Source: Rhodospirillaceae bacterium (GTDB taxonomy: Bacteria > Pseudomonadota > Alphaproteobacteria > UBA6615). From it: DNA of 37,117 nt. The stretch spans positions 1 through 37,117 of the forward strand of contig PASR01000018.1 in assembly GCA_002713365.1 (NCBI GenBank), given 5' to 3'. Positions 1 to 27,495 of the stretch are shown one piece after another; the stretch's first letter is position 1; every line of letters begins with the position of its first letter. A program made the translations under genes and the position numbers. Under the pieces are notes generated by a model, which was not told the DNA's origin, did not search any database, and saw nothing but the letters and a program-made list of their open reading frames with translations.

Positions 1-1329
1 AAACGCCAATTGCATTTAAATTTATTTATACAATCACGAGGTCACCATGAAGCTGCGTGGAATCACCCCGGTGCATCATCAAAGTTACTTACAGATATCG
101 GTTATTATCAGGGCCTAGCCCAAAGAGCAGAAGAAGGGTTATTTGATTCCATTTTCTTTGCTGACGCTCTTTCTCTGTCGGCGGACCAAGCTCGGTCTGG
201 ACGTCTTTGGCTGGAGCCCCTAACTTTATTAGCAGCGATTGCGGTTGTTACAAAACGAGTAGGATTAATTGCCACTGGTTCAAGTACCTACACCGAACCA
301 TTTAATCTCGCCCGACAGTTTGCTTCCATTGATCATATTAGTAATGGTCGCGCTGCCTGGAACATTGTTACTTCTTGGCATCAACTATCTGCCCGTAATT
401 TTGGTGATAAGGGCCAACAAACGCATTCTGATCGTTATGTTATGGCCGAAGAATATGTACAGGTTGTCAAAGACCTGTGGGACAGTTGGGCTGATGATGC
501 AGTAATTGATGATCGGGTAGGTGGTATGTATGCCCACCCTGATCGGATACGTCCTATTGATTATAAAGGCGAGCATTATTCCGTTTCCGGACCGCTTAAT
601 TTACCACGTGGCCCTCAAGGGAGGCCCGTGTTAGTACAAGCTGGTTCATCTGAGGCTGGGCGCGGCTTTGCCGCACGACATGCTGAGGCTGTGTTTACTG
701 CACACCTTGAGAAGAATACGGCACAAGAGTTTTACGCTGACATAAAAAGGCGTGTTGTCGCGGCTGGGCGCCGTGCTGATCAAGTTATTATTTTGCCTGG
801 TTTGAATCCAGTGATTGCATCAACAGAGACAGAAGCAAAACGTATGGAGCGGGAATTAAATGAGAGTACTGATCCGGAGATTGGTCGAAGGACCCTTTCG
901 AGTCGGTTTGGTGGCCATGATTTCACCCACCTTCCATTAGATAGGCCTTTAACTCCCAAAGACTTTCCCAATCCTGCCGAAGTTGAGACGATGCGCAGTC
1001 GCGCTGAATTAGTTGTTAGTTTAGTTAGAAACGAGGGTGTTACGTTACGAGAACTTCTGGCACGGTTTGCCGGGGCGCGCGGCCATTTTACGTTTGCTGG
1101 AACACCAGAGCAAGTTGCTAATCTTATCGAGGACTGGCATCAAAATGGGGCCGCTGATGGGTTTAATGTTATGCCTCCGGTTTTTCCTGTTATGTTAGAT
1201 GCTTTTATTGAGGAAGTTATTCCTATTTTACAAAAACGCGGCCTTTTCCGGACTGCTTATGAAGGAAACACACTGCGGGATCATTATAAACTAGACCGCC
1301 CTGTGGGGCGGTTCTGGGATAGTAACTAA
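1..1329 (+). CDS. FMN-dependent luciferase-like monooxygenase, NtaA/SnaA/DszA type (5' partial)
   Basis: The protein belongs to the bacterial-luciferase-like flavin monooxygenases of the nitrilotriacetate monooxygenase (NtaA/SnaA/DszA) subfamily, which use FMNH2 from a separate reductase plus O2. Visible family marks are LHLNLFIQSRGHHEAAW at the N-terminus, ATGSSTYTEPFNLARQFAS, IDHISNGRAAWNIVTSW and a GRPVLVQAGSSEAGR segment. Length (about 440 residues) fits the family. The frame is open to base 1 (K-R-Q before a TTG at 10), and relatives usually start a few residues earlier, so I treat the gene as cut by the window edge with only a few codons missing. The likely reductase partner is the FMN reductase at 5182. 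The last 94 bases before the final codons recur inverted at the right edge. The substrate is unknown. Confidence 0.93.
   Translation, partial: KRQLHLNLFIQSRGHHEAAWNHPGASSKLLTDIGYYQGLAQRAEEGLFDSIFFADALSLSADQARSGRLWLEPLTLLAAIAVVTKRVGLIATGSSTYTEPFNLARQFASIDHISNGRAAWNIVTSWHQLSARNFGDKGQQTHSDRYVMAEEYVQVVKDLWDSWADDAVIDDRVGGMYAHPDRIRPIDYKGEHYSVSGPLNLPRGPQGRPVLVQAGSSEAGRGFAARHAEAVFTAHLEKNTAQEFYADIKRRVVAAGRRADQVIILPGLNPVIASTETEAKRMERELNESTDPEIGRRTLSSRFGGHDFTHLPLDRPLTPKDFPNPAEVETMRSRAELVVSLVRNEGVTLRELLARFAGARGHFTFAGTPEQVANLIEDWHQNGAADGFNVMPPVFPVMLDAFIEEVIPILQKRGLFRTAYEGNTLRDHYKLDRPVGRFWDSN
1228..1321 (+). repeat. Inverted repeat, left copy (3' end of monooxygenase gene)
   Basis: These 94 bases are identical to the reverse complement of 37024-37117, where the window ends. 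Identity stops at 1322 (g here, a in the other copy), three codons before the stop. The segment contains a strong GC hairpin, ACCGCCC-TGTG-GGGCGGT at 1295-1312. It is not followed by a T run, so I do not call it a terminator. Confidence 0.95.
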
Positions 1330-1366
1330 GATATATATAAAATTTTTATAAAAGAGGATAAATATA

Positions 1367-2581: not shown

Positions 2582-2665
2582 GCCTTCATATATATTTTAA
2601 TTACCTATTAGTTTATTAAAAAAACCTTACTGAAGAACATATTATTTTATGAGACTACTTAATTA

Positions 2666-3589
2666 ATGGCTAAAAAAACAACTATACGTATGGGTGGATA
2701 CGGACCGCCGACAACAACACATAGTCGTGGGCTTAAATATATTGGGGATGAGTTAAATAAGAAGTTTGGTGATAGTTTAGAAATTAAATATATATGGAAT
2801 GTAATGGAATTGGGTTATGGATCTGATGCTGTTCTCTGGCTCACTGAATGTGGGATGCTTGATCTTGTATATATGTCAACTACGGCATTAACATCTAGAG
2901 TACCTCACTTGGAGTTTTTAGATCTCCCCTTTTTGTTTTCTGACAATAAATCTGCGCGTGAGGCTTATGATGGGGAGCTAGGTGCAAATATGCGTTTGGC
3001 AGTGGAAGAAAAATGTAATTTTCTGGTGCTAGGATATTTTGAAAATGGGTTTCGGCATTTATCAAATAGATTAAGAACAGTAAGTTCACCTGAAGACCTT
3101 TCTGGTATGAGTATTCGCACCCTAGGTAGCGAAATGCATAATCGTACATTTGAGCTATTAAATATGAGTCCAAAGTCGATGCGTCTTGATGAAGCAAAAA
3201 TTGCCATTGCAAATTATGAAGTGGACGCTCAGGAAAATCCATTTGCCAATACAATGACTTATGGAATACATAATATTCATAAATTTCACACACTATCTAG
3301 CCATTTTTATTTATCCCGAGGATTGTTTGCCAATCCCCAAAAATATGATTCCTGGCCGAGTGAAATACGTGATGAATTAAAATTAATTATAAAGAAATCC
3401 ATAGAGTATCAAAGAAAATTAGCCGTAACTGAGGAAAGTATAGCACGTGCTACGATAGAAAATGTTGGAGGATTTGTTTACGAGTTAAATGAATCTGAGA
3501 AGAAAAATTTTAGGGATTCTTTAACACCAATATATGATGAGGCTAGGAAGCGTTTTCACAAATCAATGTTTAATTCTGTTGGTTGGTAA
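2666..3589 (+). CDS. TRAP transporter substrate-binding protein family (DctP-like), no signal peptide
   Basis: This 307-residue protein resembles DctP/TeaA-type binding proteins. It has an early GYGPPTTTHSRGLKYIGDEL, then LDLPFLFSD, a FENGFRHLSNRLRTVSSPED strand region, the LSGMSIRT segment and VDAQENPFANT. In these families the protein is periplasmic and delivers organic acids to a DctQM permease. Here the start is fixed by an in-frame TAA at 2660-2662, directly before the ATG, so no signal peptide is encoded. No DctQ or DctM gene is in the window. There is no clear Shine-Dalgarno sequence. It may act in the cytoplasm, have lost export, or have been cut off from its leader. The fold assignment is firm; the role is unknown. 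Confidence 0.85.
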   Translation: MAKKTTIRMGGYGPPTTTHSRGLKYIGDELNKKFGDSLEIKYIWNVMELGYGSDAVLWLTECGMLDLVYMSTTALTSRVPHLEFLDLPFLFSDNKSAREAYDGELGANMRLAVEEKCNFLVLGYFENGFRHLSNRLRTVSSPEDLSGMSIRTLGSEMHNRTFELLNMSPKSMRLDEAKIAIANYEVDAQENPFANTMTYGIHNIHKFHTLSSHFYLSRGLFANPQKYDSWPSEIRDELKLIIKKSIEYQRKLAVTEESIARATIENVGGFVYELNESEKKNFRDSLTPIYDEARKRFHKSMFNSVGW

Positions 3590-3679
3590 TAAGTCTAGTT
3601 TTATAGCTTTTAAACCTCAGGTATTTCTATGCCTATACCTTGGACTCATTATGAACCTTAAACTATTTTTAAAATAACT

Positions 3680-3898
3680 ATGGTTAGCATTATGCTGGAT
3701 AAGTTAATTTTATTAGTCCATTGGTTAATCTTTTCTCTTTCCTTAGGATTAATTGGTGCTGGAGTTCAAGCGTCATTTTATAAAGGCGGGTTTTACTTAA
3801 TTATTGTTGGATTAGGGTTATCTATTATTTATTCTTTTTTTATATATTGCCTTAAAAGGAAAATTGTATGGTTTCCATGGAAATATAATCGTAAGTAA
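3680..3898 (+). CDS. Small membrane protein, 72 residues, unknown
   Basis: This short ORF encodes two long hydrophobic stretches (about residues 7-29 and 36-56) and ends in a basic tail (CLKRKIVWFPWKYNRK). It looks like a two-helix inner-membrane protein. I do not recognise a family. Its stop at 3896-3898 lies four bases before the ATG of the MFS transporter, or overlaps it if that gene starts at the upstream TTG, so the two are probably translationally coupled. By position between a TRAP-type binding protein and a transporter it could be a small transport accessory protein or a decayed DctQ-like remnant, but nothing in its residues proves this. An ATG at 3710 is an alternative start. Confidence 0.5.
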   Translation: MVSIMLDKLILLVHWLIFSLSLGLIGAGVQASFYKGGFYLIIVGLGLSIIYSFFIYCLKRKIVWFPWKYNRK

Positions 3899-3902
3899 AG
3901 GG

Positions 3903-5105
3903 ATGTTGCATTTGAATAAAAGGCAAACACGGTTTTTACTTCTTAATTTAGCGCACTATCTAGATCATTTTTTTATGCTGGTTTTTGCAAGTGCAGCAGC
4001 TTTAAAGTTAATACATGATTGGGGCATGAGCTATGCAGAGCTAATACCTTATGCAACTCCGGGTTTTATCGCATATGCCATTTTTTCTCTTCCATCTGGC
4101 TGGCTGGCGGACAGATGGAGTAGAGATAATATGATAATAATATTTTTTATTGGTATTGGTTTTTCTTCATTTATAACTGCACTTTCTCAAAGTCCACTAC
4201 AAATAGCTCTAGGGTTAACTTTAATTGGAATATTCGCTGCTATTTATCATCCTGTTGGTATAGCCTTGGTGATTGAGGGGCATGTTCGTACCGGAATACC
4301 ATTGGCTATAAATGGAGTTTTTGGAAATCTTGGTGTGGGAAGTGCTGCTTTGGTGACAGGGTTTTTTATCGATAATATGAGCTGGCGATCAGCATTTATT
4401 TATCCTGGACTTATATCGGTTTTTTTGGGTCTCATATACTATTATGTCTCTAGTAAATTACCTTCAAATGCCGAACAGGAAAGCCCGATGACAGATGGAC
4501 TTATTAATAATGAGTTAGGGCGCTCAACTATGTTACGAGTGTTGTTAATTGTATTTTTTTCTACAGCAATAGGTGGCCTGATTTTTCAAAGTACAACATT
4601 TGGTTTACCTAAAGTTTTTGATGAAAAACTTGCCGAGCTTGCAATTTCTGCTACAGAAGTAGGGTGGTATGCATTTCTTGTTTTTGGCGTTGCAGCGATA
4701 GGACAACTAATTGTTGGGTATTTAATTGATCGGTATTCTATAAGAATTGTTTTTGTTGGTATTGCTATTATACAAACGGTAATGTTCGCAGCGATGGTGG
4801 GAAAGAGCGGATGGGTGGCTTTACTTATTGCATTTATATTTATGTTGGCTGTTTTTGGTCAAGTGCCAATTAATGATGTTTTAGTTGGTCGTGTAGCACG
4901 TGAAGAGTGGCGTAGCCGAGTTTTAGCGATGAGATATATTTTAACTTTTTCGCTTACTGGTATAGCGATACCAGGAATAGCTTGGGTCCATGGAAATATG
5001 GGTTTTGATGGCTTGTTTGTTCTTCTATCGATTGGAGCAGCCTTAATATTATGTTCAGTAGTTATGTTGCCGCGCTTGCGTGCAATCACAATGCCCGTTA
5101 ATTAA
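3903..5105 (+). CDS. MFS transporter
   Basis: About 400 residues with twelve predicted hydrophobic segments. The loop LADRWSRDN between helices 2 and 3 is the typical major facilitator motif A, and a second-half equivalent, GYLIDRYSIR, marks the internal repeat. The overall look is that of fosmidomycin-resistance/sugar-type MFS carriers in the inner membrane. I choose ATG 3903 because MLHLNKRQTRFLLLNLAHYL begins right at the first helix and four bases after the preceding stop. A TTG at 3864 with AAGGA upstream would add 13 residues. It sits in the + strand train between a binding protein and an FMN reductase, so import or export of the pathway substrate is plausible. The transported compound is unknown. 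Confidence 0.88.
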   Translation: MLHLNKRQTRFLLLNLAHYLDHFFMLVFASAAALKLIHDWGMSYAELIPYATPGFIAYAIFSLPSGWLADRWSRDNMIIIFFIGIGFSSFITALSQSPLQIALGLTLIGIFAAIYHPVGIALVIEGHVRTGIPLAINGVFGNLGVGSAALVTGFFIDNMSWRSAFIYPGLISVFLGLIYYYVSSKLPSNAEQESPMTDGLINNELGRSTMLRVLLIVFFSTAIGGLIFQSTTFGLPKVFDEKLAELAISATEVGWYAFLVFGVAAIGQLIVGYLIDRYSIRIVFVGIAIIQTVMFAAMVGKSGWVALLIAFIFMLAVFGQVPINDVLVGRVAREEWRSRVLAMRYILTFSLTGIAIPGIAWVHGNMGFDGLFVLLSIGAALILCSVVMLPRLRAITMPVN

Positions 5106-5181
5106 GTGGATCATGGAGTTAATGTTGTTCACTTGTAGAAATAACAATAAACAAACAGATTTTTTTTAAGAAAGTGCTTTT

Positions 5182-5754
5182 ATGCTAAAACTAAACGTTA
5201 TTACAGTTAGTACCCGTCCAAGCAGGGTGGGGCCTGCCATATCAAAATGGTTTATAGATATAGCATCCGAAGAGTTTGGGAACACTTTTGATGTAGTAGA
5301 TGTTGATTTAGCAGATTTTAATTTACCGGTTTTTAATGAGCCTAAACACCCGCGCTTTAAAGATTATGAAAACGAAGCAACTAAGATTTGGAGTGCAAGT
5401 GTTGAGTCAGCCGATGCTTATGTATTTGTGACTCCCGAATACAATTATGGTCCACCTCCATCTTTTGTTAATGCTTTATCTTATTTAGCTGGAGAATGGC
5501 ACTATAAACCTGCAGCTTTCGTAAGTTATGGTGGAGTTTCAGGCGGGTTACGAGGAGTACAAATGGAAAAGCTTTTATTGACTACTTTCAGAGTAGTGCC
5601 AATTTTTGAGGCTGTACCAATACCTATGTTTGCCGAACACATTGAAGACGGTGTATTTAAAGCCAAAGAAATTCATGTGGATTCTGCGAGAATGATGATA
5701 CCTGAATTGGCACGCTGGGCGAATGCCTTAAAAGTTATGCGTAAAAAAAACTAA
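5182..5754 (+). CDS. NAD(P)H-dependent FMN reductase (flavodoxin-like)
   Basis: A 190-residue flavodoxin-fold protein. The FMN phosphate loop STRPSRVG is at residues 10-17, the flavin-contacting PEYNYG at 85-90, and SYGGVSGGLRG follows near 115-125. These are the marks of the NADPH-dependent FMN reductase family (SsuE/azoreductase-like), which makes reduced FMN using NAD(P)H. The window has a luciferase-like monooxygenase (1-1329) that needs free FMNH2, so this is probably its reductase component, although several genes lie between them. It is separated from the MFS gene by 76 bases and from the next SDR by 86 bases. Length is normal for the family. Confidence 0.9.
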   Translation: MLKLNVITVSTRPSRVGPAISKWFIDIASEEFGNTFDVVDVDLADFNLPVFNEPKHPRFKDYENEATKIWSASVESADAYVFVTPEYNYGPPPSFVNALSYLAGEWHYKPAAFVSYGGVSGGLRGVQMEKLLLTTFRVVPIFEAVPIPMFAEHIEDGVFKAKEIHVDSARMMIPELARWANALKVMRKKN

Positions 5755-5840
5755 AATAATATTTTTAATAATTAACTAATCATTATAATTTATTAAATTT
5801 GGCTTTTTATTATTAATAAAAATAATGTGCGGAGCTAGCT

Positions 5841-6599
5841 ATGAAAACTCGTTTGAGTGGTAAATCTGTTTTAGTGACGGGGGGCGAGAGTGGCATTGGT
5901 CGTGCTATAGTTTTGAGATGCTTAAACGAGGGTGCATCAGTAGTAATTGCTGGTATCAACGAAGAAGATATAAGTAAGACCATCTCAGATGCTGAGGCTG
6001 ATGGAGCCAAAGAACGTGTATCAGCCATAGTGACGGATGTTACTAATTCAGAACAAGTTCAAAATGCTATTGATTTGACAATAAATAATTACGGTAGGCT
6101 TGATGCTGCGATAGCTAATGCTGGAGCGTTTTGTGTAAGTACACCGTTTGGGGAATGGGATATAGATGAATGGGAGCGTGTAATAAACGTAAACCTTACA
6201 GGAGTTTTTTATGTTTTACATGCCGCGGCAAAAGTCTTGGTATCTCAAGGTGAAGGTGGTAGTTTGATTGCTACCGGTTCTTCTACCGGTATCAGACCTA
6301 TTTCGAATTTAATTCCTTATACCTCTAGCAAGGGTGGAGTACACCAGATGCTAAGGGGGCTAGCTGTAGAAATGGCTCCACATAAAATAAAGGTAAATAC
6401 TATAGTTCCTGGAATGGCTGAAACCAGACCAGTAATGACTCAGCAAGGTTATGTAGAGGCTGGTTTAAAGGCTGTACCTATGAATGAAATAGTAAAACCT
6501 GAAGAACTAGCTGCTTTTGTAGCTTTCTCGTTGAGTGATGAGGTGCCGCATATGACTGGAACACTGCTTAAAGTTGATGCTGGCCGAACATCGGCTTAA
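5841..6599 (+). CDS. Short-chain dehydrogenase/reductase, first of a tandem pair
   Basis: A classical SDR of 252 residues. The nucleotide-binding TGGESGIG lies at 13-20, the ANAG motif at 92-95, and the catalytic Ser147/148, Tyr160 and Lys164 (PYTSSK) are present. Members oxidise or reduce alcohols and ketones with NAD(P). The C-terminus ends LKVDAGRTSA, almost the same as the next gene, and the two proteins align end to end, so they arose by duplication. The stop is 10 bases before the next ATG. An AT-only palindrome (5804-5822) lies upstream. The pair could act on successive or stereoisomeric hydroxy intermediates, but the substrates cannot be read from sequence. Confidence 0.92.
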   Translation: MKTRLSGKSVLVTGGESGIGRAIVLRCLNEGASVVIAGINEEDISKTISDAEADGAKERVSAIVTDVTNSEQVQNAIDLTINNYGRLDAAIANAGAFCVSTPFGEWDIDEWERVINVNLTGVFYVLHAAAKVLVSQGEGGSLIATGSSTGIRPISNLIPYTSSKGGVHQMLRGLAVEMAPHKIKVNTIVPGMAETRPVMTQQGYVEAGLKAVPMNEIVKPEELAAFVAFSLSDEVPHMTGTLLKVDAGRTSA

Positions 6600-6609
6600 G
6601 GAGAAAAAA

Positions 6610-7371
6610 ATGAATTATTATAACCTTGCTGGGAAAACCTTACTAGTTACAGGTGCTGAAACAGGAATAGGCCGAGCAATTGCCATAAGGGCTGCAAAAG
6701 ATGGTGCTAATGTAACTGCGGCTGGTATTAATAATGAAGGACTTAAAGAGACTTTGGAGTTGGCTAGATCCGAGGGTGCAGAAGAACGTTTTCTAACACT
6801 AGAGGTTGATGTAAGGGATGCAGTCCAAGTCCAAAAAATGTTTGATGATACATTATTAAAGTTTTCTAGGTTAGATGCTACTGTAGCTAATGCTGGGGTT
6901 ATGATAGAACGAAGACCTTTTATAGAATCCACTCATGAGGAATGGCATCATGTATTATCAGTAAACCTTCACGGTACTTTTCATACGCTTCAGGCCGCCA
7001 CGCGAATATTAAGAAAACAAGGACAAGGTGGGGATTTATTAGTTACTACTTCCTCTAATGCTGTTCGGCCAGGGCCCCAGGCATCTTCTTACGTTGCTTC
7101 TAAGGGGGCGATTCATCAAATGGTCAGAGCACTTGCAGTTGAACTAGCCTCCGAAAAGATAAGGGTTAACGCTATAGTTCCAGGCCTTACTTTGACGCCA
7201 GGGACCCAGAATCGTCCTGGTCACATAGAAAGAGGAATAAAAAACGTACCGATGGGTGAGATAGTGATGCCCGAAGAAATAGCAGCATTAGTAGCATTTA
7301 CGCTTAGCGGAGAGGCGCCACATTTGACAGGGACAGACTTGAAAGTTGATTCAGGCCGCACTTCAGCTTAA
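6610..7371 (+). CDS. Short-chain dehydrogenase/reductase, second of a tandem pair
   Basis: 253 residues, with TGAETGIG at 14-21, ANAG near 93-96, and catalytic Ser148/149, Tyr161 and Lys165 (SYVASK). Start at 6610 is chosen over an in-frame upstream ATG at 6574 because AAGGAG sits just before it and the N-terminus then matches its neighbour. It is a paralogue of the SDR ending at 6599 and is almost certainly co-translated with it. Its 3' end overlaps the end of the convergent FAD monooxygenase gene by nine bases. Function is a probable NAD(P)-dependent alcohol/ketone oxidoreductase; the substrate is unknown. Confidence 0.92.
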   Translation: MNYYNLAGKTLLVTGAETGIGRAIAIRAAKDGANVTAAGINNEGLKETLELARSEGAEERFLTLEVDVRDAVQVQKMFDDTLLKFSRLDATVANAGVMIERRPFIESTHEEWHHVLSVNLHGTFHTLQAATRILRKQGQGGDLLVTTSSNAVRPGPQASSYVASKGAIHQMVRALAVELASEKIRVNAIVPGLTLTPGTQNRPGHIERGIKNVPMGEIVMPEEIAALVAFTLSGEAPHLTGTDLKVDSGRTSA

Positions 7372-8535
7372 CAACTTTATATTGTTGAATTTCTTGCAGC
7401 CAGTTGGGATGTGTCTGGCTGCTCTGCTATACTGTGAGGCCAGCCATGGGATTTTTCTCTCAGCATTTATGGCAAGAGGTTTCAACAATTTTGGTAGATA
7501 GATTGTAGTTCCATACAAACGAGTCCATTTTTGAGTGTGTTCTGTAAGAGGGCGTTCACGATTTTCCCAAATATTTAAAGCACTTTTTAAGTCTTTGGTT
7601 TCGTTTAATGCTACAGATAAGCCTAGACCATTCATCATTGCATGTCCTGCGCCCTGTCCTAAGTATGGAGGCATGGCGTGTGCTGCATCTCCAAGAATTG
7701 CTATTTTTCCTTCCGACCAACGTTTTAAACGAATTGTTTTAAATTGAGCCCATCTACTTTCATTCCATTGAGCGTTTTTTGCAAAACGCTCAATGAGCGG
7801 TTCCAGAGTGGGAAAAGACTTTTTCCAAGAGCTGACGTTTATAGGGGTGGTACGTCCAGCAGAATCATCTGCCATGCAGGTAAAAATTGCATAAATTTCA
7901 GATTTTGAGTTTGGGCAATACAAAATTCGTCGATTATCTGCCCAAGCTTCTACCATTGCGATGCCGTCAGAAGGGTTAGCAGGCATATCTTTGGGCAAGC
8001 TAGGAATTACCATACGCGTTCCTCCCTCTTTTTGAAAAACTTGGCTGTATGTTAAATCTAGACAATCACGAATGCGTGAATTAATGCCATCAGCAGCTAT
8101 TATTAGATCTGCTTGATGTACTTTTCCGTTAGCTAGAAATATTTCTCCTTTGGGATTAGCTTCAGTAACATTTGACCCAGTTAGAATTTCCACCCCGACA
8201 TTCTCAGCCCGCTGGGCAAGTAAAGAAATAATATGCCGTCGGCTTATCCGATACCTACCAAGTCCTGACTTAAGTCTTAATATTAATTTTCCGTTAGCGT
8301 TTACTGAATCTCGATAATCTATCTCTATGCCTCCCGCTAGAATAGGATTGAGAATACCTAAGGCATTAAAAATGCAGACCATATTATCTTGTATGGCTAT
8401 CCCATATCCTTCGGCGTTAAGCGAATTACGCCTTTCATGAACCCGGACAGTCCATCCCCTGTCAGCCAAACCTATTGCTGCTACCAATCCTCCAAAACCG
8501 GCACCAGAAATTTCAGCGTGGCGTTTTTCTAACAT
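7363..8535 (-). CDS. FAD-dependent aromatic-ring-type monooxygenase (PHBH family)
   Basis: A 390-residue group A flavoprotein monooxygenase. The FAD-binding GAGFGG is at 11-16, the second FAD/NAD(P)H contact AADGINS is near 147-153, and GDAAHAMPPYLGQG begins at 282. These enzymes (salicylate or p-hydroxybenzoate hydroxylase-like) use NAD(P)H and O2 to hydroxylate an activated ring. The gene stands alone on the - strand, convergent with the SDR pair (nine-base overlap) and divergent from the GST-like gene at 8872. The upstream region contains a -10-like TATACT (8618 to 8613 on the - strand) and a perfect inverted repeat at 8588-8611, a plausible regulator site. The exact substrate cannot be stated. 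Confidence 0.92.
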   Translation of the reverse strand: MLEKRHAEISGAGFGGLVAAIGLADRGWTVRVHERRNSLNAEGYGIAIQDNMVCIFNALGILNPILAGGIEIDYRDSVNANGKLILRLKSGLGRYRISRRHIISLLAQRAENVGVEILTGSNVTEANPKGEIFLANGKVHQADLIIAADGINSRIRDCLDLTYSQVFQKEGGTRMVIPSLPKDMPANPSDGIAMVEAWADNRRILYCPNSKSEIYAIFTCMADDSAGRTTPINVSSWKKSFPTLEPLIERFAKNAQWNESRWAQFKTIRLKRWSEGKIAILGDAAHAMPPYLGQGAGHAMMNGLGLSVALNETKDLKSALNIWENRERPLTEHTQKWTRLYGTTIYLPKLLKPLAINAERKIPWLASQYSRAARHIPTGCKKFNNIKLLS

Positions 8536-8587
8536 TTAAAATTCCTTCTAAATTCTAAAGAAAATGTAAATATAATTTTGAAATATA

Positions 8588-8850: not shown

Positions 8851-8871
8851 GATGGTTGGAGGAGGTAATCC

Positions 8872-9468: not shown

Positions 9469-9521
9469 GATTTACATCTATCTCCGTATCTTGAGTTCCA
9501 CCTAATGGTGAAAGACAGAAT

Positions 9522-10292
9522 ATGAATGATAAATTATTAACGACTGTAGAACCTTGTGAAGGAGTTATGTTAGTAACCCTAAATAGGCCTAAAAAGCGCA
9601 ATGCGCTTTCTGCTGAACTAAAAATAGCTCTTACAGAAACTGCTAAAGCATTGTCTGAGCGCAATGATATTGGAGCAGTTATACTTACTGGAAACGGCAG
9701 TGGTTTTACCTCTGGGAACGATATATCTGAGGGTAATTCTTTCGCACAAGGGCTCTCCCTTCCCGAAGCAAGGCGGCATATTCGTTTAGGACTAGAAATG
9801 TGCAATGCATGGGAGGCAATGCCTCAACTTTCAATTGCAGCAATTGAAGGTTTTTGTGTTGGTGGTGGAATATCTCTAGCAGTTGCTTGTGACTTTCGTA
9901 TTTTACATAGTAATGCTTGGCTAAGAGCGCCGGAGGTCGAACTTGGCATAACGTTTTCTTGGGGAACACTTCCAAGATTAGTTCGATTGGTGGGGCCAAA
10001 TAGAGCTAAATTGATTGCAGCCCTAGCTAGAAAAATTGATGCCAAAACTGCTTTATCGTGGGGTCTTTGCGATAATGTAGTAGATGATGTAATGCAAGAG
10101 GCGTTAGATATGGCAAAAGAAATTTCAGCGAAACCAAGAGTGGCGCAGCAGATGATCAAAGAATCAATAAACCGATTAAAAGTTGGTTCCGATAACAGTA
10201 CACTTGAGCAGGACCAAGTATTACTTAATATGAGTGATCCAAATACTCATAATTTGCAGTCGAATATTTTAAAAGGTTTGGCAGAAAAATGA
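9522..10292 (+). CDS. Enoyl-CoA hydratase/isomerase family (crotonase)
   Basis: 256 residues. The CoA-binding start VTLNRPKKRNALS, the oxyanion-hole segments GFTSGNDISEG and GFCVGGGISLAVACDFRI, and LRAPEVELGI are all typical of crotonases. The Glu in APEVE matches the first catalytic Glu of rat enoyl-CoA hydratase. The second (Glu164 in the rat enzyme) appears to be a Leu in the segment KLIAALARKIDA, so simple water addition is uncertain and another crotonase reaction (isomerase, hydrolase or lyase) is possible. It overlaps the following cupin by four bases (ATGA), which indicates translational coupling. It fits a CoA-ester branch with the 3-hydroxyacyl-CoA dehydrogenase at 12560. Confidence 0.9.
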   Translation: MNDKLLTTVEPCEGVMLVTLNRPKKRNALSAELKIALTETAKALSERNDIGAVILTGNGSGFTSGNDISEGNSFAQGLSLPEARRHIRLGLEMCNAWEAMPQLSIAAIEGFCVGGGISLAVACDFRILHSNAWLRAPEVELGITFSWGTLPRLVRLVGPNRAKLIAALARKIDAKTALSWGLCDNVVDDVMQEALDMAKEISAKPRVAQQMIKESINRLKVGSDNSTLEQDQVLLNMSDPNTHNLQSNILKGLAEK

Positions 10293-10669
10293 TTAAAAAC
10301 GGGCAAATTAGATATCTACAAGATATAAAGAAATACACCCCCCCAGACCATACAGGGACAACCAACGCCCGATTGATTGAAAAAACGTTCTGTGAAAATT
10401 TTGAAATGATTCATGGAACTATAGAGCCTGGCTGCGGAGCACATAGGCACTCTCATGATGTTCATAGTCAGGTCTGTTATGTTCTTGAAGGTGAAATGGA
10501 TGTTAGTTTTGATGACAAAAGCCCCATAAGATGTGGTCCTGGAGCTGTCGTTGAAATACCCCCAAAAGTTGAGCACCTAATTATAAACTCTGGTGAAAAG
10601 CCCTTAAAGATTCTTGTTATATATAGCCCACCTTTGCCTCCTAGGGGAGACATCCCGATTGATTGTTAA
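10289..10669 (+). CDS. Small cupin-domain protein
   Basis: 126 residues with one cupin barrel. The first motif is GCGAHRHSHDVHSQVCYVLEGE, where the HRH/HDVH histidines are the likely metal ligands. The second motif is GPGAVVEIPPKVEHLIINSG, supplying the last His. Single-domain cupins of this size are often isomerases, dioxygenases or lactonase-like, but the family is too broad for a specific call. It is coupled to the upstream crotonase by a four-base overlap and ends 26 bases before the 3' end of the convergent GST-like gene. It is one of four cupin genes in the window, including the broken one at 35636. Confidence 0.85.
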   Translation: MIKNGQIRYLQDIKKYTPPDHTGTTNARLIEKTFCENFEMIHGTIEPGCGAHRHSHDVHSQVCYVLEGEMDVSFDDKSPIRCGPGAVVEIPPKVEHLIINSGEKPLKILVIYSPPLPPRGDIPIDC

Positions 10670-10695
10670 TGGGTTTATCTAAATTAATATGTTAA

Positions 10696-11334
10696 TTAGA
10701 CTAGTGTACTTGGCCGGCTATTTATATTTTCCAGCCACCTTCTAAGATTAGTCGCTTCTTCAGGAATTTCAAATTTTAGCCGGTCAGCAAAACTGATTGT
10801 ACAAAAGGCTGTAATATCTGCGATCGAAAAATTTTTACCAGCTATATATGTTCTATCGTCAAGAATTTTATTAACTACAGTAAAAAACCTCTTTACTCTT
10901 TCTCGTCCTCTATCAGCCAATTCAGGTATTTGCTCGTAATTATCGGGACCAGTTAATGCTCGGTTTTTAAGGCCTGGAGCAGAGTTTCTTAATGACTCAC
11001 CAACCGCCAGAAAGCCATCTATTTCCATCCTCCATTGCATGTCAGCAACCATAGCCTTTTCCTCTTTATCAACTCCCATTAACGGAGGGTTCGGATAAGC
11101 ATCTTCTAAATATCGACAGCATCCAGCAGTGCTGAAGAACCGTTCCCCTGTTTCAGTTTCGAGCACCGGAACAGTGCAATAAGGGTTAATATTTTTAAAC
11201 TCAGGACTTAATTGTTCGGCATCTCGCAGGTTCACCTCTATATTTTTAATAGAATTTGTTAATCCCTTTTCAGCAATAAACATTCTTACCTGTCGAGGAC
11301 TTGGCGCAGTTGTGCAGTCATAAAATATAATCAC
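10696..11334 (-). CDS. Glutathione S-transferase family protein
   Basis: 212 residues. The thioredoxin-like domain begins MIIFYDCTTAPSPRQVRMFI with a proline-containing active-site helix, and continues with INPYCTVPVLETETGERFFS (about 49-68), including the cis-Pro. The C-terminal helical domain has the IAGKNFSIADITAFCTI segment typical of GSTs. The usual acidic-Ser glutathione clamp is replaced by F-S-T. It resembles bacterial GSTs near MaiA-like or dehalogenase-type enzymes, but the substrate is not assignable. The gene stands alone on the - strand, convergent with the cupin at 10289 and divergent from the cupins at 11680. Confidence 0.88.
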   Translation of the reverse strand: MIIFYDCTTAPSPRQVRMFIAEKGLTNSIKNIEVNLRDAEQLSPEFKNINPYCTVPVLETETGERFFSTAGCCRYLEDAYPNPPLMGVDKEEKAMVADMQWRMEIDGFLAVGESLRNSAPGLKNRALTGPDNYEQIPELADRGRERVKRFFTVVNKILDDRTYIAGKNFSIADITAFCTISFADRLKFEIPEEATNLRRWLENINSRPSTLV

Positions 11335-11679: not shown

Positions 11680-12099
11680 ATGACAGGAGATAATACAAAG
11701 CAAACCAAGACAGAAGGTGCGTATTCTGCGGGTGAAGGAAAATATTTTTTTGAGGTTTCTAATTTAACCGGTTTCAAAGCCGGCCCTAATTATGCTGATA
11801 CATACGGTTCAGTGGTTGAGGGGGAATTAACGCAAGTGGGTATTATGACAATTCCTGCGGGCATGTCATCTGATCCTCATACCCATCCAAATGAGCAATG
11901 GGTTTATTTGTTAAGGGGGCGTTTAAGTGCTGTTGTAGACGGCCAAGAAAAACAAGTTTCCCCAGGTGAACTGATGTATATTCCAGCAAATACAGTTCAC
12001 AGTGTAGATGTTTTGCCCGGTGAAGATGCCCACTTCTTTACTTGTAAGGATTTACGCCATGGTATTGCGGGTACGCCAATAGGTCCTGAACGAAAATAA
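11680..12099 (+). CDS. Cupin-domain protein, first of a near-identical tandem pair
   Basis: 139 residues, single cupin domain. The motif DPHTHPNEQWVYLLRGRL gives likely metal ligands His67, His69 and Glu72, and PGELMYIPANTVH gives His107. From residue 37 to the end it differs from the next gene's product at only six of 103 positions, while residues 1-36 match at about 16. Toward the 3' end the DNA is identical for about 80 bases, third codon positions included. Binding of a divalent metal is expected; the reaction is unknown. The pair begins a + strand train leading into a 3-hydroxyacyl-CoA dehydrogenase and an Old Yellow Enzyme. Confidence 0.9.
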   Translation: MTGDNTKQTKTEGAYSAGEGKYFFEVSNLTGFKAGPNYADTYGSVVEGELTQVGIMTIPAGMSSDPHTHPNEQWVYLLRGRLSAVVDGQEKQVSPGELMYIPANTVHSVDVLPGEDAHFFTCKDLRHGIAGTPIGPERK

Positions 12100-12131
12100 T
12101 TTAAAATAAACCTATGTAATGAGGATTAAAG

Positions 12132-12551
12132 ATGTCTAAAAAATCTACAGAAGAAACCAAGACCGATGGCGCTTATAAAGGAGGAGACGGAACTTATTTT
12201 TATGACGTGGGAAAGCTATCATATGTAAATGCTGGTCAAAATTATGCTGATACATACGGCTCAGTAGTTGAAGGAGAATTAACGCAAGTGGGCATTATGA
12301 CAATTCCAGAGGGCATGTCGTCTGATCCTCATACCCATCCTAATGAGCAATGGATTTATTTGTTAAAGGGGCGTTTAAGTGCTGTTGTTGATGGCCAAGA
12401 AAAACAAGTTTCTCCAGGTGAACTGATTTATATTCCAGCAAATATAGTTCACAATGTAGATGTTTTGCCCGGTGAAGATGCCCACTTCTTTACTTGTAAG
12501 GATTTACGCCATGGTATTGCGGGTACGCCAATAGGCCCTGAACGAAAGTAG
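12132..12551 (+). CDS. Cupin-domain protein, second of a near-identical tandem pair
   Basis: 139 residues, the same length and cupin layout as the protein encoded at 11680, with all likely metal ligands kept (His67, His69, Glu72, His107). The six changes after residue 36 are A60E, V75I, R79K, M99I, T105I and S108N, mostly conservative. It starts 33 bases after the first copy with GAGG just upstream, and ends eight bases before the GTG of the dehydrogenase gene. A recent duplication alone would not leave the N-terminal third so divergent, so gene conversion is likely. The copies may form heteromers or have divided roles. Confidence 0.9.
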   Translation: MSKKSTEETKTDGAYKGGDGTYFYDVGKLSYVNAGQNYADTYGSVVEGELTQVGIMTIPEGMSSDPHTHPNEQWIYLLKGRLSAVVDGQEKQVSPGELIYIPANIVHNVDVLPGEDAHFFTCKDLRHGIAGTPIGPERK

Positions 12552-12559
12552 TTTAAAAA

Positions 12560-13498
12560 GTGAATAAGAAATTACATGAAACTGTAGCAGTCATCGGCTC
12601 CGGTACGATAGGTGCATCATGGGCAAGTTATTTTTTGGCCCAGGGTTGTAGCGTTCGAATTTGGGATCCAGACTCTAATTTTTATGAACGAACAAAACTT
12701 TTTATCGATAACGTTTGGCCAATTATGAAAGAGCTTGGTATTGCTGAATTGGCTTCGCCAGATAATGCTATTTATTGTAAAAGTATGGCTGAAGCAATTT
12801 CAGGGTCTACATTTGTACAAGAGAGTGGACCAGAGAACGCGGAATTAAAAACAAAACTAATTGCAGACATTGATAGTATTTTATCACCAGATATTGTGAT
12901 ATCTTCAAGCTCGACCGCTCTGCCAACTAGCGAATTTCAGGGTGGGGCGAAGCATCCACAGCGTGTGGTTTTAGGGCATCCGTTTAATCCCCCGCATTTA
13001 ATGCCTTTGGTTGAAGTGGGGGGAGGAAAAAAGACTGAGGTATGGGCCGTGGATAGAGCGATTGATTTCTATCAAAAGATAGGTAAATCCCCGGTAAGGT
13101 TACGCGCTGAAATACCTGGCCATCTGGCTAATCGCTTACAAGCAGCAGTTTATCGCGAAGCAGTTTATCTGGTGTCTGAGGGGTATGCTTCTGTTTCTGA
13201 CATAGATATGGCGATGGCTCAGGGACCAGGGCTAAGGTGGGCCTTTATGGGGCCACACATGACTTATCATTTGGGAGGAGGATCTGGCGGAATATCTAAT
13301 TATTTTGATATTCTGGGTTCTAGCCAAGAGAGACGTTGGGCAGCCCTCGGTGAGCCCAAGCTTACAGATGAGGTAAAAGAAAAAATTATAGAGGGCGTTA
13401 AAGAGGAAGCAGGGGGACGTTCTTTAGAAATGTTGGCTGCTGATCGAGATGAGATTTTAGTAAACCTTTTGAAGGTATTACAAAAAAAATCTCTATAA
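12560..13498 (+). CDS. 3-hydroxyacyl-CoA dehydrogenase family (carnitine/gulonate dehydrogenase-like)
   Basis: 312 residues. The NAD-binding GSGTIG is at 13-18, with Asp36/Asp38 after the second strand (RIWDPDSN) favouring NAD. The catalytic-region signature GHPFNPPHLMPLVEV begins at 139, with the catalytic His in HPFNPP, and PGHLANRLQAA starts the C-terminal domain. A single-domain protein of about 310 residues with GHPFNPPHL looks more like carnitine 3-dehydrogenase or lambda-crystallin/L-gulonate dehydrogenase than a fatty-acid FadB. The substrate is therefore a small beta-hydroxy acid or its CoA ester. GTG is taken as the start because it gives the Rossmann strand at the usual distance. 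Confidence 0.9.
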   Translation: MNKKLHETVAVIGSGTIGASWASYFLAQGCSVRIWDPDSNFYERTKLFIDNVWPIMKELGIAELASPDNAIYCKSMAEAISGSTFVQESGPENAELKTKLIADIDSILSPDIVISSSSTALPTSEFQGGAKHPQRVVLGHPFNPPHLMPLVEVGGGKKTEVWAVDRAIDFYQKIGKSPVRLRAEIPGHLANRLQAAVYREAVYLVSEGYASVSDIDMAMAQGPGLRWAFMGPHMTYHLGGGSGGISNYFDILGSSQERRWAALGEPKLTDEVKEKIIEGVKEEAGGRSLEMLAADRDEILVNLLKVLQKKSL

Positions 13499-13531
13499 CT
13501 AAGTCCTATAAATAAAACAAAGGAGAAATTT

Positions 13532-14686
13532 GTGAGCGAAACCAATGATTCTAAACCACTTTTATTTACCCCTCTTACATTGGGTGAAGTAACACTTAAA
13601 AATAGAGTGGTAATATCTCCAATGTGTCAATATTCCGCGACCAATGGTTTGGCGAATGATTGGCATAGTATACACCTCGGACAGTATGCGCTGGGAGGAT
13701 CTGGTTTGGTGTTTTGTGAAGCTGCTGCTGTTGAAGAGCGAGGAAGGATTACTCATGGTGATTTGGGCATATGGTCAGCGGAACATGCTACTGCATTAAA
13801 ACCTATTGTATCTTTTATATCTGCTCAGGGCTCTGTCCCGGGGATACAAATAGCCCATGCTGGTCGTAAAGCAAGTATGCAACGCCCTTGGTTTGGAAAT
13901 GGCCCATTGGAAGAGAGCGACTTTAGGCGTGGTGAAAAGCCTTGGGATATAGTGGCTCCTAGTCCTGAACCAATTAATGAAAAATCCTTAATGCCCCATG
14001 AGCTATCTATTAGAGAGATAAAGGAAATACAGGAGGCGTTTGCGAACGCTACCAGACATGCAAATACAGCAGGGTTTGAGGTTCTTGAAATTCATTCGGC
14101 TCATGGATACCTTTCTCATACTTTTTTATCTCCGCTGTCTAATCTCAGGAATGATATATATGGTGGAGACTTAAACGGAAGAATGAGGTTCACTCTTGAA
14201 ACGGTAGAAAAGGTTCGCGCTGTATGGCCGGCCGGCAAACCACTTTTTGTTCGTATATCTACGATTGATGGAGCGGATGGTGGTTGGACAATGGAGGATT
14301 CGATTGCTTTAACTAATGAGATGAAAATTAGAGGAGTTGATGTTATTGATTGTTCGTCAGGGGGTATTGCGGGAACTGTGACCGCTTCTCGGGAACCTTT
14401 GCCTCTAGGGTTTCGGGTTTCTTTATCAGATGAGTTGCGCCGTAATAATAATATTTTGACTATGACTCATGGGCTTATTTTACACGCTAATCAAGCTGAG
14501 AAAATATTGCAGTCCGGCGACGCCGATCTGATAGGAATAGCTCGTGAGGCCCTATATAATCCTTATTGGGCTCGTCATGCAGCGAATGAGTTGGACTTTG
14601 ATGAAAATTACTCTGATTGGCCAGAACAATATGGTTGGTGGTTGACAAGGCGTGAAGCTCACTTGAAAAACATAGGTGTTCGTTAA
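13532..14686 (+). CDS. NADH:flavin oxidoreductase, Old Yellow Enzyme family (YqjM-like)
   Basis: 384 residues forming an FMN TIM barrel. PMCQYSA (30-36) carries the Cys that marks the YqjM/XenA class, QIAHAGRKA (about 107-115) binds flavin, HSAH (188-191) supplies the His pair that holds the substrate carbonyl, and SPLSNLRNDIYGG follows. GTG at 13532 is preceded by AAAGGAGA. These enzymes reduce activated C=C bonds of enones or nitro groups with NAD(P)H. It follows the 3-hydroxyacyl dehydrogenase by 33 bases and precedes the HCCA-isomerase fusion by 36, a tight operon. It may reduce an unsaturated ring or side-chain intermediate. Confidence 0.93.
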   Translation: MSETNDSKPLLFTPLTLGEVTLKNRVVISPMCQYSATNGLANDWHSIHLGQYALGGSGLVFCEAAAVEERGRITHGDLGIWSAEHATALKPIVSFISAQGSVPGIQIAHAGRKASMQRPWFGNGPLEESDFRRGEKPWDIVAPSPEPINEKSLMPHELSIREIKEIQEAFANATRHANTAGFEVLEIHSAHGYLSHTFLSPLSNLRNDIYGGDLNGRMRFTLETVEKVRAVWPAGKPLFVRISTIDGADGGWTMEDSIALTNEMKIRGVDVIDCSSGGIAGTVTASREPLPLGFRVSLSDELRRNNNILTMTHGLILHANQAEKILQSGDADLIGIAREALYNPYWARHAANELDFDENYSDWPEQYGWWLTRREAHLKNIGVR

Positions 14687-14722
14687 AAGTATAAAAACTA
14701 ATAATTTAAAGAAAGACTTCAT

Positions 14723-15739
14723 ATGCCATCCCCTATTCGTTTCTATTTTGATTTTGTTTCCGCTTATTCGTATGTCGCGATGAATCGGATAGATAAAGTG
14801 GCTGCAAGATATGGCCGTGAAGTTGACTGGAAGGTGGTTGTTTTACCAGATATATTAGACCATCATAATTCTATATCACCTCGAGAACAGCCAGCTAAAT
14901 TCGCCCATAACCAGAAAGATTTTCCTAGGTTATGTAAGATGCATGGACTGCCAGTTACTTTTCCACCAGAGGTTCCTCCTTATGGTGCAACCCTGCATAG
15001 ATTAGTATTTCTTCGTTTAAAAAGAACAAACATTGAGTTAGCTAAAAATTTTAGTCTAGCTGTTGGTAATCGTTACTTTGGCATGGGTAAGGAGGTTCGG
15101 ACCGCTCGTCAGTTGGCCTCTGCCTGCAGTGATTACGGTGTTCCAATCGGTATTGATGAGATAAAGGCAGCAGAAAATGATAGAACGGCGCAAAAGTCTT
15201 TATCTTCAGGCTTTAAACGTGCAATCGCCGATGGAATGTTTGGTGCTCCCTTTATGGTGTGTGATGGAGAAAAATACTGGGGGGCAGACCGTCTCGACCA
15301 CTTAGAATATAACTTAAAGAGAAAAATAAAAGTACCCCGTGGATTCGAGCCATTTCCCTTACTAAGTAATTTCACTGAACGTAATGGTCCTTTATTTCAT
15401 AGAGTGAGGAATGGTAAAATAACCTTTGCATTTAGAGTCGACGAGAGACACCTAAACCCTCGAGAAGTTGTTCATGGTGGCTGGTTAACTAGTTTTGTTG
15501 ACGTATCTATGGCAAAAACAGCAATGTTTCAAATCGGCCGTGATGGTGTTGCCCCTACTATCCATCTAGAAACCGATTTTATTGGTGCTATAAAACCCGG
15601 CCAATGGGTTGAATGTCAGGCTAATTTAGTAAATAGGACACGTTCTATGAATTTTGTTGAGGGCGTGGTAACTGCAGATGGAATACCTGTAGCGCGCTGT
15701 TCAGCAATTTTTAAAATTCCGTATAATTTACAAACATAA
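14723..15739 (+). CDS. Fusion: 2-hydroxychromene-2-carboxylate isomerase/DsbA domain plus hotdog thioesterase domain
   Basis: 338 residues in one uninterrupted frame. Residues about 1-200 match HCCA isomerase/kappa-GST proteins: IRFYFDFVSAYSYVAM at the N-terminus, with Ser13 in the glutathione-activating position, and GMFGAPFMVCDGEKYWGADR at 171-190. Residues about 215-338 form a hotdog domain of the PaaI thioesterase type: VVHGGWLTSFVDVSMAK at 249-265 with the H-G-G turn and Asp260, then HLETDFIGAIKPGQWVE. HCCA isomerase interconverts a chromene carboxylate and its open enone, a glutathione-dependent step in naphthalene-type pathways. A hotdog domain would hydrolyse a CoA or other thioester. 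I do not know this pairing as a standard architecture. Confidence 0.87.
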   Translation: MPSPIRFYFDFVSAYSYVAMNRIDKVAARYGREVDWKVVVLPDILDHHNSISPREQPAKFAHNQKDFPRLCKMHGLPVTFPPEVPPYGATLHRLVFLRLKRTNIELAKNFSLAVGNRYFGMGKEVRTARQLASACSDYGVPIGIDEIKAAENDRTAQKSLSSGFKRAIADGMFGAPFMVCDGEKYWGADRLDHLEYNLKRKIKVPRGFEPFPLLSNFTERNGPLFHRVRNGKITFAFRVDERHLNPREVVHGGWLTSFVDVSMAKTAMFQIGRDGVAPTIHLETDFIGAIKPGQWVECQANLVNRTRSMNFVEGVVTADGIPVARCSAIFKIPYNLQT

Positions 15740-15835
15740 ATAAATTAGTAGTTCTAGCTAGCAGTTTGCATTAGTAATTAAAACGTTTATGGCCAAAATA
15801 ATGCACGTCCTTTATATATACCTTTCATATAGCCT

Positions 15836-17122
15836 ATGACAGAGGCGTTGAAAAAGATTATCTGGTTTATACAGCAATCAAAATTACTTCTTATTATGGT
15901 TATGGTTCCTTTTTTGGGCTTAGCTTTTATGCTAAGCCAATTTTTAAGATCAGTGCCGGCTGTCATAGCCCCAGATTTAAGGAGTGAATTGAATTTAACA
16001 GCAATAGAACTTAGTTCTTTACCGGCGGCTTTATTTTTAGGTTCTGCTTTGATGCAACTACCTGTCGGCGTTCTTTTAGATAGGTTTGGCCCTAGAAGAA
16101 CAATAGCAATATTTCTGTTAATATCTGCAGTGGGCACCACATTGATATCTCGAGCAGAGAGCTCTTCAGTTCTAGCATTAGCGTTATTTGTTGCTGGTTG
16201 TGGCATTGCACCGGTTTATATGGGTTTGATTGTTTTGCTTTCTCGGTGGGTTCCTCGTGATCGTTTGGCTACAGCAAGTTCCATAGCAGTAGCTGTAAGT
16301 GGAGCTGGTTTATTACTATCTGCTGCACCATTTGCCTGGGCGAGTGTAGTTATCGGGTGGAGAGAGACGCTTGGTTTTGTGGGGCTTGGAGCAGCTTTGC
16401 TATCGGCTATAGTTTGGTTAGTATCGCGAGATCGGCCACCTGGAGAAATGCCGGAGAAAGTTGTACCCGAAACTTTGCGGCAAACAATTCTGGGTTTAAA
16501 ATATGTTTTAAGAGACAAGAGGCTCTATGCCCTTGCATCAGTGGCCTCAATCTCAGTTGGTTCTTTTTTAACCACTCGTGCCCTTTGGACAGGCCCCTAT
16601 CTGAATGATGTTTTTGGTCTTGATATGATAAGTCGCGGTAATGTGATATTGGCATTATCTGTAGCTTGGCTCGTTTCAGCTCTATTTTATGGGCCACTTG
16701 ATCGTTTGTTTGATACACGGCGTGGCGTTGTTAGCGTAGGAGCAATAAGTATGGCTTTATCCTTTGTATTACTCGCCGTAAATAACAGCGCATCTGTTGG
16801 GGTTGTTACAGTCTTACTTGTTTTACTTGGCTTATCATCCTCATTTACTGCACTAATTTTTGCACATGCCCGAGCTCTTTTTCCTGACACACACACAGGT
16901 AGGGCTATTACTGCAATTAACCTTTTTATTTGGAGTGGAGTATTTTTAATACAGGTTATTACTGGTTTTATAGTAAATGCTTTTCCGGCTGACTCTCAGG
17001 GCCATAGTCCAATAGAAGCCTATCAAGCAATGTTTATAACTTTGGCCATTGCATTAATTTTTGCTGTTTTTGTGTATAGGCGGATTGAAGATGTACCACC
17101 CTCTAAAGACATTGCTCATTAG
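15836..17122 (+). CDS. MFS transporter
   Basis: 428 residues with about twelve hydrophobic segments. The helix 2-3 loop LLDRFGPRRTIAI is the major facilitator motif A, and a second-half loop GPLDRLFDTRRG mirrors it. The ends are cytoplasmic and basic. The start at 15836 has no clear Shine-Dalgarno sequence, and a later Met could be used. It ends five bases from the 3' end of the convergent SDR gene. It closes the + strand train of the left block, so it may carry the substrate or a product of that pathway. Nothing in the sequence names the ligand. It is not a close copy of the MFS protein at 3903. Confidence 0.9.
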   Translation: MTEALKKIIWFIQQSKLLLIMVMVPFLGLAFMLSQFLRSVPAVIAPDLRSELNLTAIELSSLPAALFLGSALMQLPVGVLLDRFGPRRTIAIFLLISAVGTTLISRAESSSVLALALFVAGCGIAPVYMGLIVLLSRWVPRDRLATASSIAVAVSGAGLLLSAAPFAWASVVIGWRETLGFVGLGAALLSAIVWLVSRDRPPGEMPEKVVPETLRQTILGLKYVLRDKRLYALASVASISVGSFLTTRALWTGPYLNDVFGLDMISRGNVILALSVAWLVSALFYGPLDRLFDTRRGVVSVGAISMALSFVLLAVNNSASVGVVTVLLVLLGLSSSFTALIFAHARALFPDTHTGRAITAINLFIWSGVFLIQVITGFIVNAFPADSQGHSPIEAYQAMFITLAIALIFAVFVYRRIEDVPPSKDIAH

Positions 17123-27492: not shown

Positions 27493-27495
27493 AGC

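Follow-up and report, generated by a model that had tools for sequence, protein, structure and literature searches.

A conserved cupin, dehydrogenase, Old Yellow Enzyme and isomerase-thioesterase gene module in a family of marine Alphaproteobacteria

Contig PASR01000018.1, 37,117 nucleotides long and hereafter called the window, is an entire contig (C18) of the 2.5-Mb, 19-contig genome (G000; assembly GCA_002713365.1) of a Rhodospirillaceae bacterium, and it carries a conserved four-gene module encoding a cupin, a dehydrogenase of the 3-hydroxyacyl-coenzyme A (CoA) dehydrogenase type (HADH), an Old Yellow Enzyme (OYE) and a fusion of a 2-hydroxychromene-2-carboxylate (HCCA) isomerase-like domain with a hotdog thioesterase. 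The core formed by these genes is probably a family-specific catabolic operon of the form cupin(s)-HADH-OYE-isomerase::thioesterase, ending in this lineage with a major facilitator superfamily (MFS) transporter, which would combine redox steps, isomerisation and thioester hydrolysis in the breakdown of a CoA-linked unsaturated acid. A first-pass annotation had read positions 1-17122 as a single catabolic block; the linkage holds for the core and fails for four genes at the other end of that interval (P0001, P0002, P0003 and P0005).

Results

Conservation of the core

The core run (11680-17122) lies on a single strand as cupin-cupin-HADH-OYE-fusion-MFS, with gaps of 32, 8, 33, 36 and 96 bp, and a convergent short-chain dehydrogenase/reductase (SDR) gene stands beside it:

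11680-12099, plus strand: P0013, core cupin B (PF07883)
12132-12551, plus strand: P0014, core cupin C, a tandem duplicate of P0013 (81% identical; G001 and G002 also have two copies)
12560-13498, plus strand: P0015, core HADH-type dehydrogenase, carnitine/L-gulonate dehydrogenase branch (PF02737/PF00725)
13532-14686, plus strand: P0016, core class-III-like OYE (PF00724, 236 bits)
14723-15739, plus strand: P0017, core fusion of a kappa glutathione S-transferase (GST)/HCCA-isomerase domain (residues ~1-200; PF01323, DSBA) and a PaaI-type hotdog thioesterase (~205-335; PF03061, 4HBT)
15836-17122, plus strand: P0018, MFS transporter (MFS2), final gene of the run (PF07690; 3' of the fusion in 5/18 relatives)
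17127-17888, minus strand: P0019, convergent SDR beside the core (PF00106; present in 15/18 relatives)

The fusion protein was searched for in its own genome and in 94 relatives. Full-length fusions (63-100% identity) were found in 19 of the 24 genomes of the host's family, with one match each at the threshold used, and in none of the 71 other genomes of the class, one of which matches residues 1-196 at 35%. The surroundings of P0017 were fetched from all 18 relatives with a full-length fusion and the 37 proteins of the window were mapped onto them, discarding matches that covered less than 40% of the query or overlapped a better match and, for the measurement of core gaps, matches below 90 bits. 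The order and strand of the HADH and OYE genes are kept in all 17 relatives whose contig shows both (gap 51-154 bp), as are those of OYE and fusion (17/17; gap 40-149 bp in 10, 604-867 bp in 7). A cupin gene is found upstream of HADH in 16/16, always on the fusion's strand, the distance being 23-72 bp in eight relatives, 307-465 bp in four and 4.4-5.6 kb in another four; these counts leave out genes that fall off the contig, namely the cupin of G013 and the cupin, HADH and OYE of G022. Core proteins are 61-82% identical among relatives, and whereas the core stays, the gene content upstream of the cupins changes from genus to genus. Because its order is kept in the informative relatives, we reject a chance collection as the explanation of the core.

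At least 6 relatives carry a regulator gene of the IclR type between OYE and fusion or immediately 5' of the fusion; in the neighbourhood tables, which hold open reading frames (ORFs) of at least 100 aa, the IclR-type ORF was clustered in 5 genomes, and its end is also present at the start of the G022 contig. G022, with neither OYE nor P0019 near its fusion, was considered as an exception to the core and dismissed as one, since its contig begins inside the IclR-type gene and the upstream part is missing. The absence of P0019 from 3/18 relatives concerns G020 and G023, where on that side the contig ends at most 0.9 kb from the fusion, and G022, where 3.9 kb of other genes follow the fusion, some of them common to G007, G019 and G020.

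The five family genomes that lack the fusion (completeness 93, 61, 79, 96 and 74%) gave no OYE match above 55%. A scan of named genomes returned 17 full-length fusion copies, all in metagenome-assembled genomes (MAGs) titled Alphaproteobacteria, Rhodospirillaceae or Proteobacteria bacterium, which are genomes already in the family set and not additional ones; sample names of the fusion-carrying MAGs include ALOHA, MarineAlpha12 and TaraRedSea. The same scan found one isomerase-only match, in Henriciella (29%), and a match on a Cupriavidus plasmid covering 85% of P0017 was rejected as a fusion, being a 223-aa ORF that holds the isomerase domain alone. Among the matches listed for 289 genomes of the class, read by eye, no adjacent OYE-HADH pair was seen outside the family, which is a weak negative with at most 6-7 candidates scored per genome; the nearest pair noticed there is about 17 kb apart (G225), both proteins being just 46% identical. 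Around 15 OYE and 5 HADH matches outside the family (20 stretches) no recurring partner appeared, in a table blurred by false ORFs from high-GC genomes.

The fusion protein and the active sites of the core

The cupin, HADH, OYE, fusion and P0019 genes are under purifying selection, with ratios of nonsynonymous to synonymous substitution (dN/dS; NG86, related pairs) of 0.020-0.142, pairs with saturated dS yielding no value, and both halves of the fusion are constrained. The two domains are joined intact in all 19 aligned members. Invariant in this 19-member alignment are S13 and W186-G-A-D-R190 in the isomerase half and N245, H251-G-G253 and D260 in the thioesterase half. S13 aligns with the Ser of the DFLSPFSY stretch in 2imd, so that Ser replaces CxxC, and we take this Ser to be catalytic in NahD; HGG with a downstream Asp is the functional motif of PaaI-type thioesterases.

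An AlphaFold2 model of P0017 has a mean predicted local distance difference test score (pLDDT) of 78 and a predicted template-modelling score (pTM) of 0.64, at which the relative placing of the two domains is unreliable. Residues 1-201 match kappa GST 1r4w (Z 20.1, 3.2 Å, 200 residues) and the isomerase half matches NahD 2imd (Z 17.9), the 1r4w/2imd matches spanning 197-200 residues, while residues 203-338 match thioesterase 2hbo (Z 15.5) and the PaaI-type proteins 1psu/1wlu (Z 12.3); Foldseek matches agree with both fold assignments. The protein thus has both the thioredoxin-like fold with helical insert of HCCA isomerases and kappa GSTs and the hotdog fold, HGG and downstream Asp of PaaI-type thioesterases. 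Identity of the isomerase half to HCCA-isomerase-type proteins is 23-31%. The full-text literature (open-licence papers) returned no report of an isomerase-thioesterase fusion, and none linking the isomerase with acyl-CoA dehydrogenase and leucine.

In the OYE P0016, C32, Y34, K113, H188, H191 and Y193 are invariant; the barrel family match together with the Cys/Tyr and His/His/Tyr motifs, which have established roles in OYEs, places it with class III, and its solved relatives include XenA and YqjM, with no NCBIfam cut-off reached. S117, H140 and E152 are invariant in P0015, whose best structural relative is lambda-crystallin 3ado and which scores 272 bits against the NCBIfam carnitine-dehydrogenase equivalog, short of its cut-off of 414. 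The invariant residues of the cupin are H67, H69, Q73 and H107, and its weak sequence relatives include quercetinase and KdgF, relatives that would suit a ring or enol chemistry but do not demonstrate it. Presuming, from what is known of these families, that such invariant residues are catalytic, the active sites of the core are likely intact. Elsewhere in the window, a 96-aa ORF (35636-35926) without a Pfam match ends right at a cupin-like HNH motif and resembles a truncated or frame-broken cupin.

Division of the surrounding 17 kb

Profile matches (Pfam/NCBIfam) confirm every enzyme class that the first-pass annotation had listed for 1-17122, to which a DctP solute-binding protein and two MFS transporters are to be added; the 37-kb window has no tRNA gene. 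Upstream of the core lie the following genes:

1-1329, plus strand: P0001, NtaA/DmoA-family flavin mononucleotide (FMN)-dependent monooxygenase (TIGR03860, 538 bits, above the cut-off of 279.7); 5' end lost at the contig edge, apparently by a few residues
1367-2581, plus strand: P0002, acyl-CoA-dehydrogenase-fold flavoprotein (Pfam/NCBIfam matches)
2666-3589, plus strand: P0003, DctP-type tripartite ATP-independent periplasmic (TRAP) solute-binding protein (PF03480)
3864-5105, plus strand: P0004, MFS transporter (MFS1; PF07690), found on this side of the core also in G001 and G002
5182-5754, plus strand: P0005, NAD(P)H-dependent FMN reductase (PF03358)
5841-6599, plus strand: P0006, SDR (PF13561; 77-78% in G001/G002; 51% to P0007)
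6574-7371, plus strand: P0007, SDR (PF13561; 77-78% in G001/G002)
7363-8535, minus strand: P0008, flavin adenine dinucleotide (FAD) monooxygenase of the p-hydroxybenzoate hydroxylase (PHBH) type (PF01494, FAD_binding_3; 63-65% in G001/G002)
8872-9468, plus strand: P0009, zeta-like GST (GST1; maiA profile 65 bits, under the cut-off of 171; 76-78% in G001/G002)
9522-10292, plus strand: P0010, crotonase-family protein (PF00378; near the core in G001, G002 and G014)
10289-10669, plus strand: P0011, cupin A (PF07883; near the core in G001, G002 and G010)
10696-11334, minus strand: P0012, GST (GST2; PF00043/PF13409; near the core in 5/18 relatives)

Positions 1-17122 are not one unit and comprise at least three modules. 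Within the window the core is deep, and what surrounds it (MFS1, the SDR pair, the FAD monooxygenase, GST1-crotonase-cupin A and GST2) is younger and of genus level; P0001, P0002, P0003 and P0005 are unrelated neighbours that belong to neither. The congeneric genomes G001 and G002 group MFS1, the SDR pair, the FAD monooxygenase, GST1, crotonase, cupin A and GST2 with the cupin pair, HADH, OYE, fusion, MFS2 and P0019, the counterparts of P0008 being on the core's strand there, unlike the minus-strand P0008 of the window. In G008, G010 and G014 (two sister genera) the core, MFS2 and GST2 are kept, with the crotonase in G014 and cupin A in G010. The other 13 relatives have none of the accessory set from MFS1 to GST2 near the core; where the contig extends, they show the core, P0019 and the flanking BI-1-like P0020, P0021 and Sir2 protein P0037, together with an NtaA-type monooxygenase that shares just 40-42% identity with P0001, and with distant matches of the ABC-ATPase and hydrolase kinds. 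Orthologues of P0001 (65-75%) and P0002 in relatives lie on contigs other than that of the core, adjoining each other on G014:C301; in G001 and G002 that of P0003 (67-70%) is separated from the core by about 22 kb, and nothing matching P0005 turned up in the stretches fetched around the core of the 18 relatives. Beside the FAD monooxygenase in G001 and G002 we noticed by eye a TcuA-like flavoprotein and a TcuB-like membrane protein; the window has no such ORF there.

Flavin monooxygenases are abundant in this genome, with 26 PF00296 matches in 2.5 Mb (0-28 in 14 family members, 0-11 in 9 genomes of other families). By arithmetic about 0.4 would be expected per 37 kb, and given the 26 matches the FMN monooxygenase of the window is not beyond chance. 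An NtaA-type monooxygenase, a divergent flavin reductase and a large amidase-like protein form a conserved module of their own on G001:C5, G002:C11 and G000:C16, where the monooxygenase frame is split by TAG. Several relatives from other genera have this module upstream of the core (enzyme 40-43% identical to P0001), and we do not tie it to the core because it lies on contig C16 in the host. The apparent counterpart of the C-terminal loop that usually carries the catalytic Glu of acyl-CoA dehydrogenases reads QKHISFQFP/QKHISFPFP in P0002 as in four orthologues (83-85%), and P0002 is probably not a plain acyl-CoA dehydrogenase. As a side observation on the assembly, contigs C9 and C12 of the host share match pairs with identical scores at the same offset (C9:56945/C12:243937 and C9:64459/C12:251451); a stretch of at least ~7.5 kb occurs twice, perhaps as an assembly duplicate.

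These data bear on the reading of the interval as a chance collection of genes in a genome rich in catabolic flavoenzymes. The abundance of PF00296 matches, another flavin-rich locus on contig C16 and the lack of linkage of P0001, P0002, P0003 and P0005 to the core would all fit, and for those four genes the neighbourhood comparison does show what a chance collection predicts. The core does not, its order being kept in every informative relative at 61-82% protein identity and the fusion in 19/19, and as an account of the locus chance is highly unlikely.

Substrate and ring-cleavage partners

A polycyclic, terpenoid or chromene-like substrate, as initially proposed, finds no backing in the genome. 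No LigB-family ring-cleavage dioxygenase was found in the host genome, which has a single Ring_hydroxyl_A match (in the window, at 20412-20939) and only sub-cut-off matches to the extradiol dioxygenase model TIGR03213, all outside 1-17122. No extradiol dioxygenase and hydratase-aldolase stand beside the isomerase in 1-17122, and a dihydrodipicolinate synthase (DHDPS)-family protein at 33379-34377 in the window reaches no NCBIfam cut-off. A free-standing relative of the isomerase domain (30% identity) is encoded at G000:C10:105505-106110, downstream of carboxylase, crotonase and acyl-CoA-dehydrogenase genes with a MerR regulator beside them, as read by eye from the sequences, in what looks like a leucine-degradation/acyl-CoA locus. 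With the partners lacking and this relative in a leucine-degradation-like setting, a naphthalene/chromene pathway was rejected as the best reading.

The wider proposal of a single 17-kb pathway for such a substrate, begun by the FMN monooxygenase and FMN reductase, can point to the presence of every part within 1-17122, to the company that MFS1, the SDR pair, the FAD monooxygenase, GST1, crotonase, cupin A and GST2 keep with the core in G001 and G002, and to the NtaA-type enzyme with flavin reductase and amidase-like protein upstream of the core in several relatives. Yet P0001 and P0002 have their orthologues away from the core, no counterpart of P0005 was found close to it and the host carries its other NtaA module on contig C16; together with the absence of a LigB dioxygenase, the single Ring_hydroxyl_A match and the lack of any TIGR03213 match above the cut-off, this makes a single pathway quite unlikely.

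Two further gene groups were observed in the window. A Rieske oxygenase pair (19783-21512) is nearest to anthranilate dioxygenase AndAc/AndAd, under the cut-offs (457 of 750 and 143 of 230 bits), and in a hydantoinase A/B pair (25762-29637) the A subunit is nearest to caprolactamase alpha (510 bits, cut-off 1000), with a PotD-like solute-binding protein and ABC transporter genes beside the pair.

Discussion

Our results suggest that the conserved core, with its intact active sites, is a real breakdown route for some carbon compound; the catabolic reading of the first-pass annotation and its remark that no standard pathway fits are both borne out. We infer the reactions of the core, their order, co-transcription and the substrate, and the order and substrate are guesses. 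Acyl-CoA chemistry is proposed because of the locus of the free-standing isomerase relative and the acyl-CoA-thioesterase fold of the fused domain. The substrate could be a single unsaturated and hydroxylated acid, probably of cyclic or branched structure, that is bound to CoA at some stage. The metal cupin, acting as a tautomerase, hydrolase or oxygenase, might make or tautomerise an enol or ketone; P0015 would oxidise a secondary alcohol with NAD and P0016, using FMN and NAD(P)H, would reduce a conjugated C=C bond. At its Ser13 site, P0017 may activate glutathione and add it reversibly to an electrophilic intermediate, allowing isomerisation, and the fused hotdog domain could then hydrolyse the thioester and release the free acid.

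Several observations weigh against a catabolic operon of this kind. The block shows neither a CoA ligase nor a CoA transferase, which leaves the source of the CoA thioester unexplained, and relatives of the HADH family such as lambda-crystallin/L-gulonate dehydrogenase act on free acids. P0019, the BI-1-like gene and other flanking genes are also kept, so that synteny is partly general and adjacency alone is no proof of a shared pathway. All named carriers of the fusion are MAGs. Finally, the model of P0017 is of moderate quality, with patches below pLDDT 50 at 52-62, 80-87 and 248-251, the last of which touches the HGG motif.

The core could alternatively serve electrophile detoxification, with the OYE and the GST-like domain clearing reactive enones and the hotdog domain recycling trapped CoA or glutathione thioesters. 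OYEs of the XenA/YqjM type and kappa GSTs, the relatives of P0016 and P0017, are often stress or detoxification enzymes. However, a fixed HADH-type dehydrogenase with cupins, often joined by an IclR-type regulator, looks catabolic, and no stress regulator was seen; we regard detoxification as rather unlikely and retain the catabolic operon. A more specific version of the latter is a tentative and somewhat doubtful possibility: P0017 might be a new bifunctional enzyme that forms or isomerises, in its kappa-GST/HCCA-type domain, an intermediate linked to glutathione or CoA and hands it to the fused thioesterase. With the cupin, HADH and OYE it might make up a route not described before, restricted to a single family of uncultured marine Alphaproteobacteria and directed at dissolved organic matter of a carboxylated alicyclic or branched kind.

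The core is a small and testable gene set, four to five proteins of known folds conserved across a marine family for which the present searches yielded MAGs only. The fused isomerase and thioesterase are an unusual domain pair, and the named-genome scan found its 17 full-length copies in the host's group alone. Should the route act on recalcitrant dissolved organic matter, that debated function would gain a concrete biochemical handle.

Expansions of flavin monooxygenase (FMNO) paralogues, with 114 in one genome, are described for the uncultured marine lineage SAR202 in two reports, which propose the oxidation of recalcitrant alicyclic matter by these enzymes (PMC5395668, PMC6946804). The host resembles SAR202 in being an uncultured marine lineage with many luciferase-like monooxygenases (26 here), and differs in belonging to the Alphaproteobacteria, in having far fewer than 114 and in a core without such an enzyme. 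Among characterised proteins, residues 1-200 of P0017 share with the NahD HCCA isomerase and kappa GSTs (2imd, 3fz5, 1r4w) the fold, the Ser in place of CxxC and the aligned FGxP and GxDR motifs, at 15-25% identity in structural alignments; unlike NahD, P0017 is fused to a thioesterase, in a block without a naphthalene-type ring-cleavage or aldolase partner. With PaaI-type hotdog thioesterases (2hbo, 1j1y, 1psu) it has in common the 4HBT fold, HGG and an Asp nine residues past the motif's His, whereas its thioesterase is the C-terminal part of a fusion with no phenylacetate genes beside it. L-carnitine and L-gulonate 3-dehydrogenases (lambda-crystallin 3ado) give the best profile and structure matches to P0015, which in contrast to carnitine dehydrogenase scores under the cut-off, with no carnitine genes seen beside it. 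P0016 matches the class-III OYEs XenA and YqjM over its whole length and has their Cys/Tyr and His/His/Tyr set, and what distinguishes it from them is the company of its gene, which is specific to this family.

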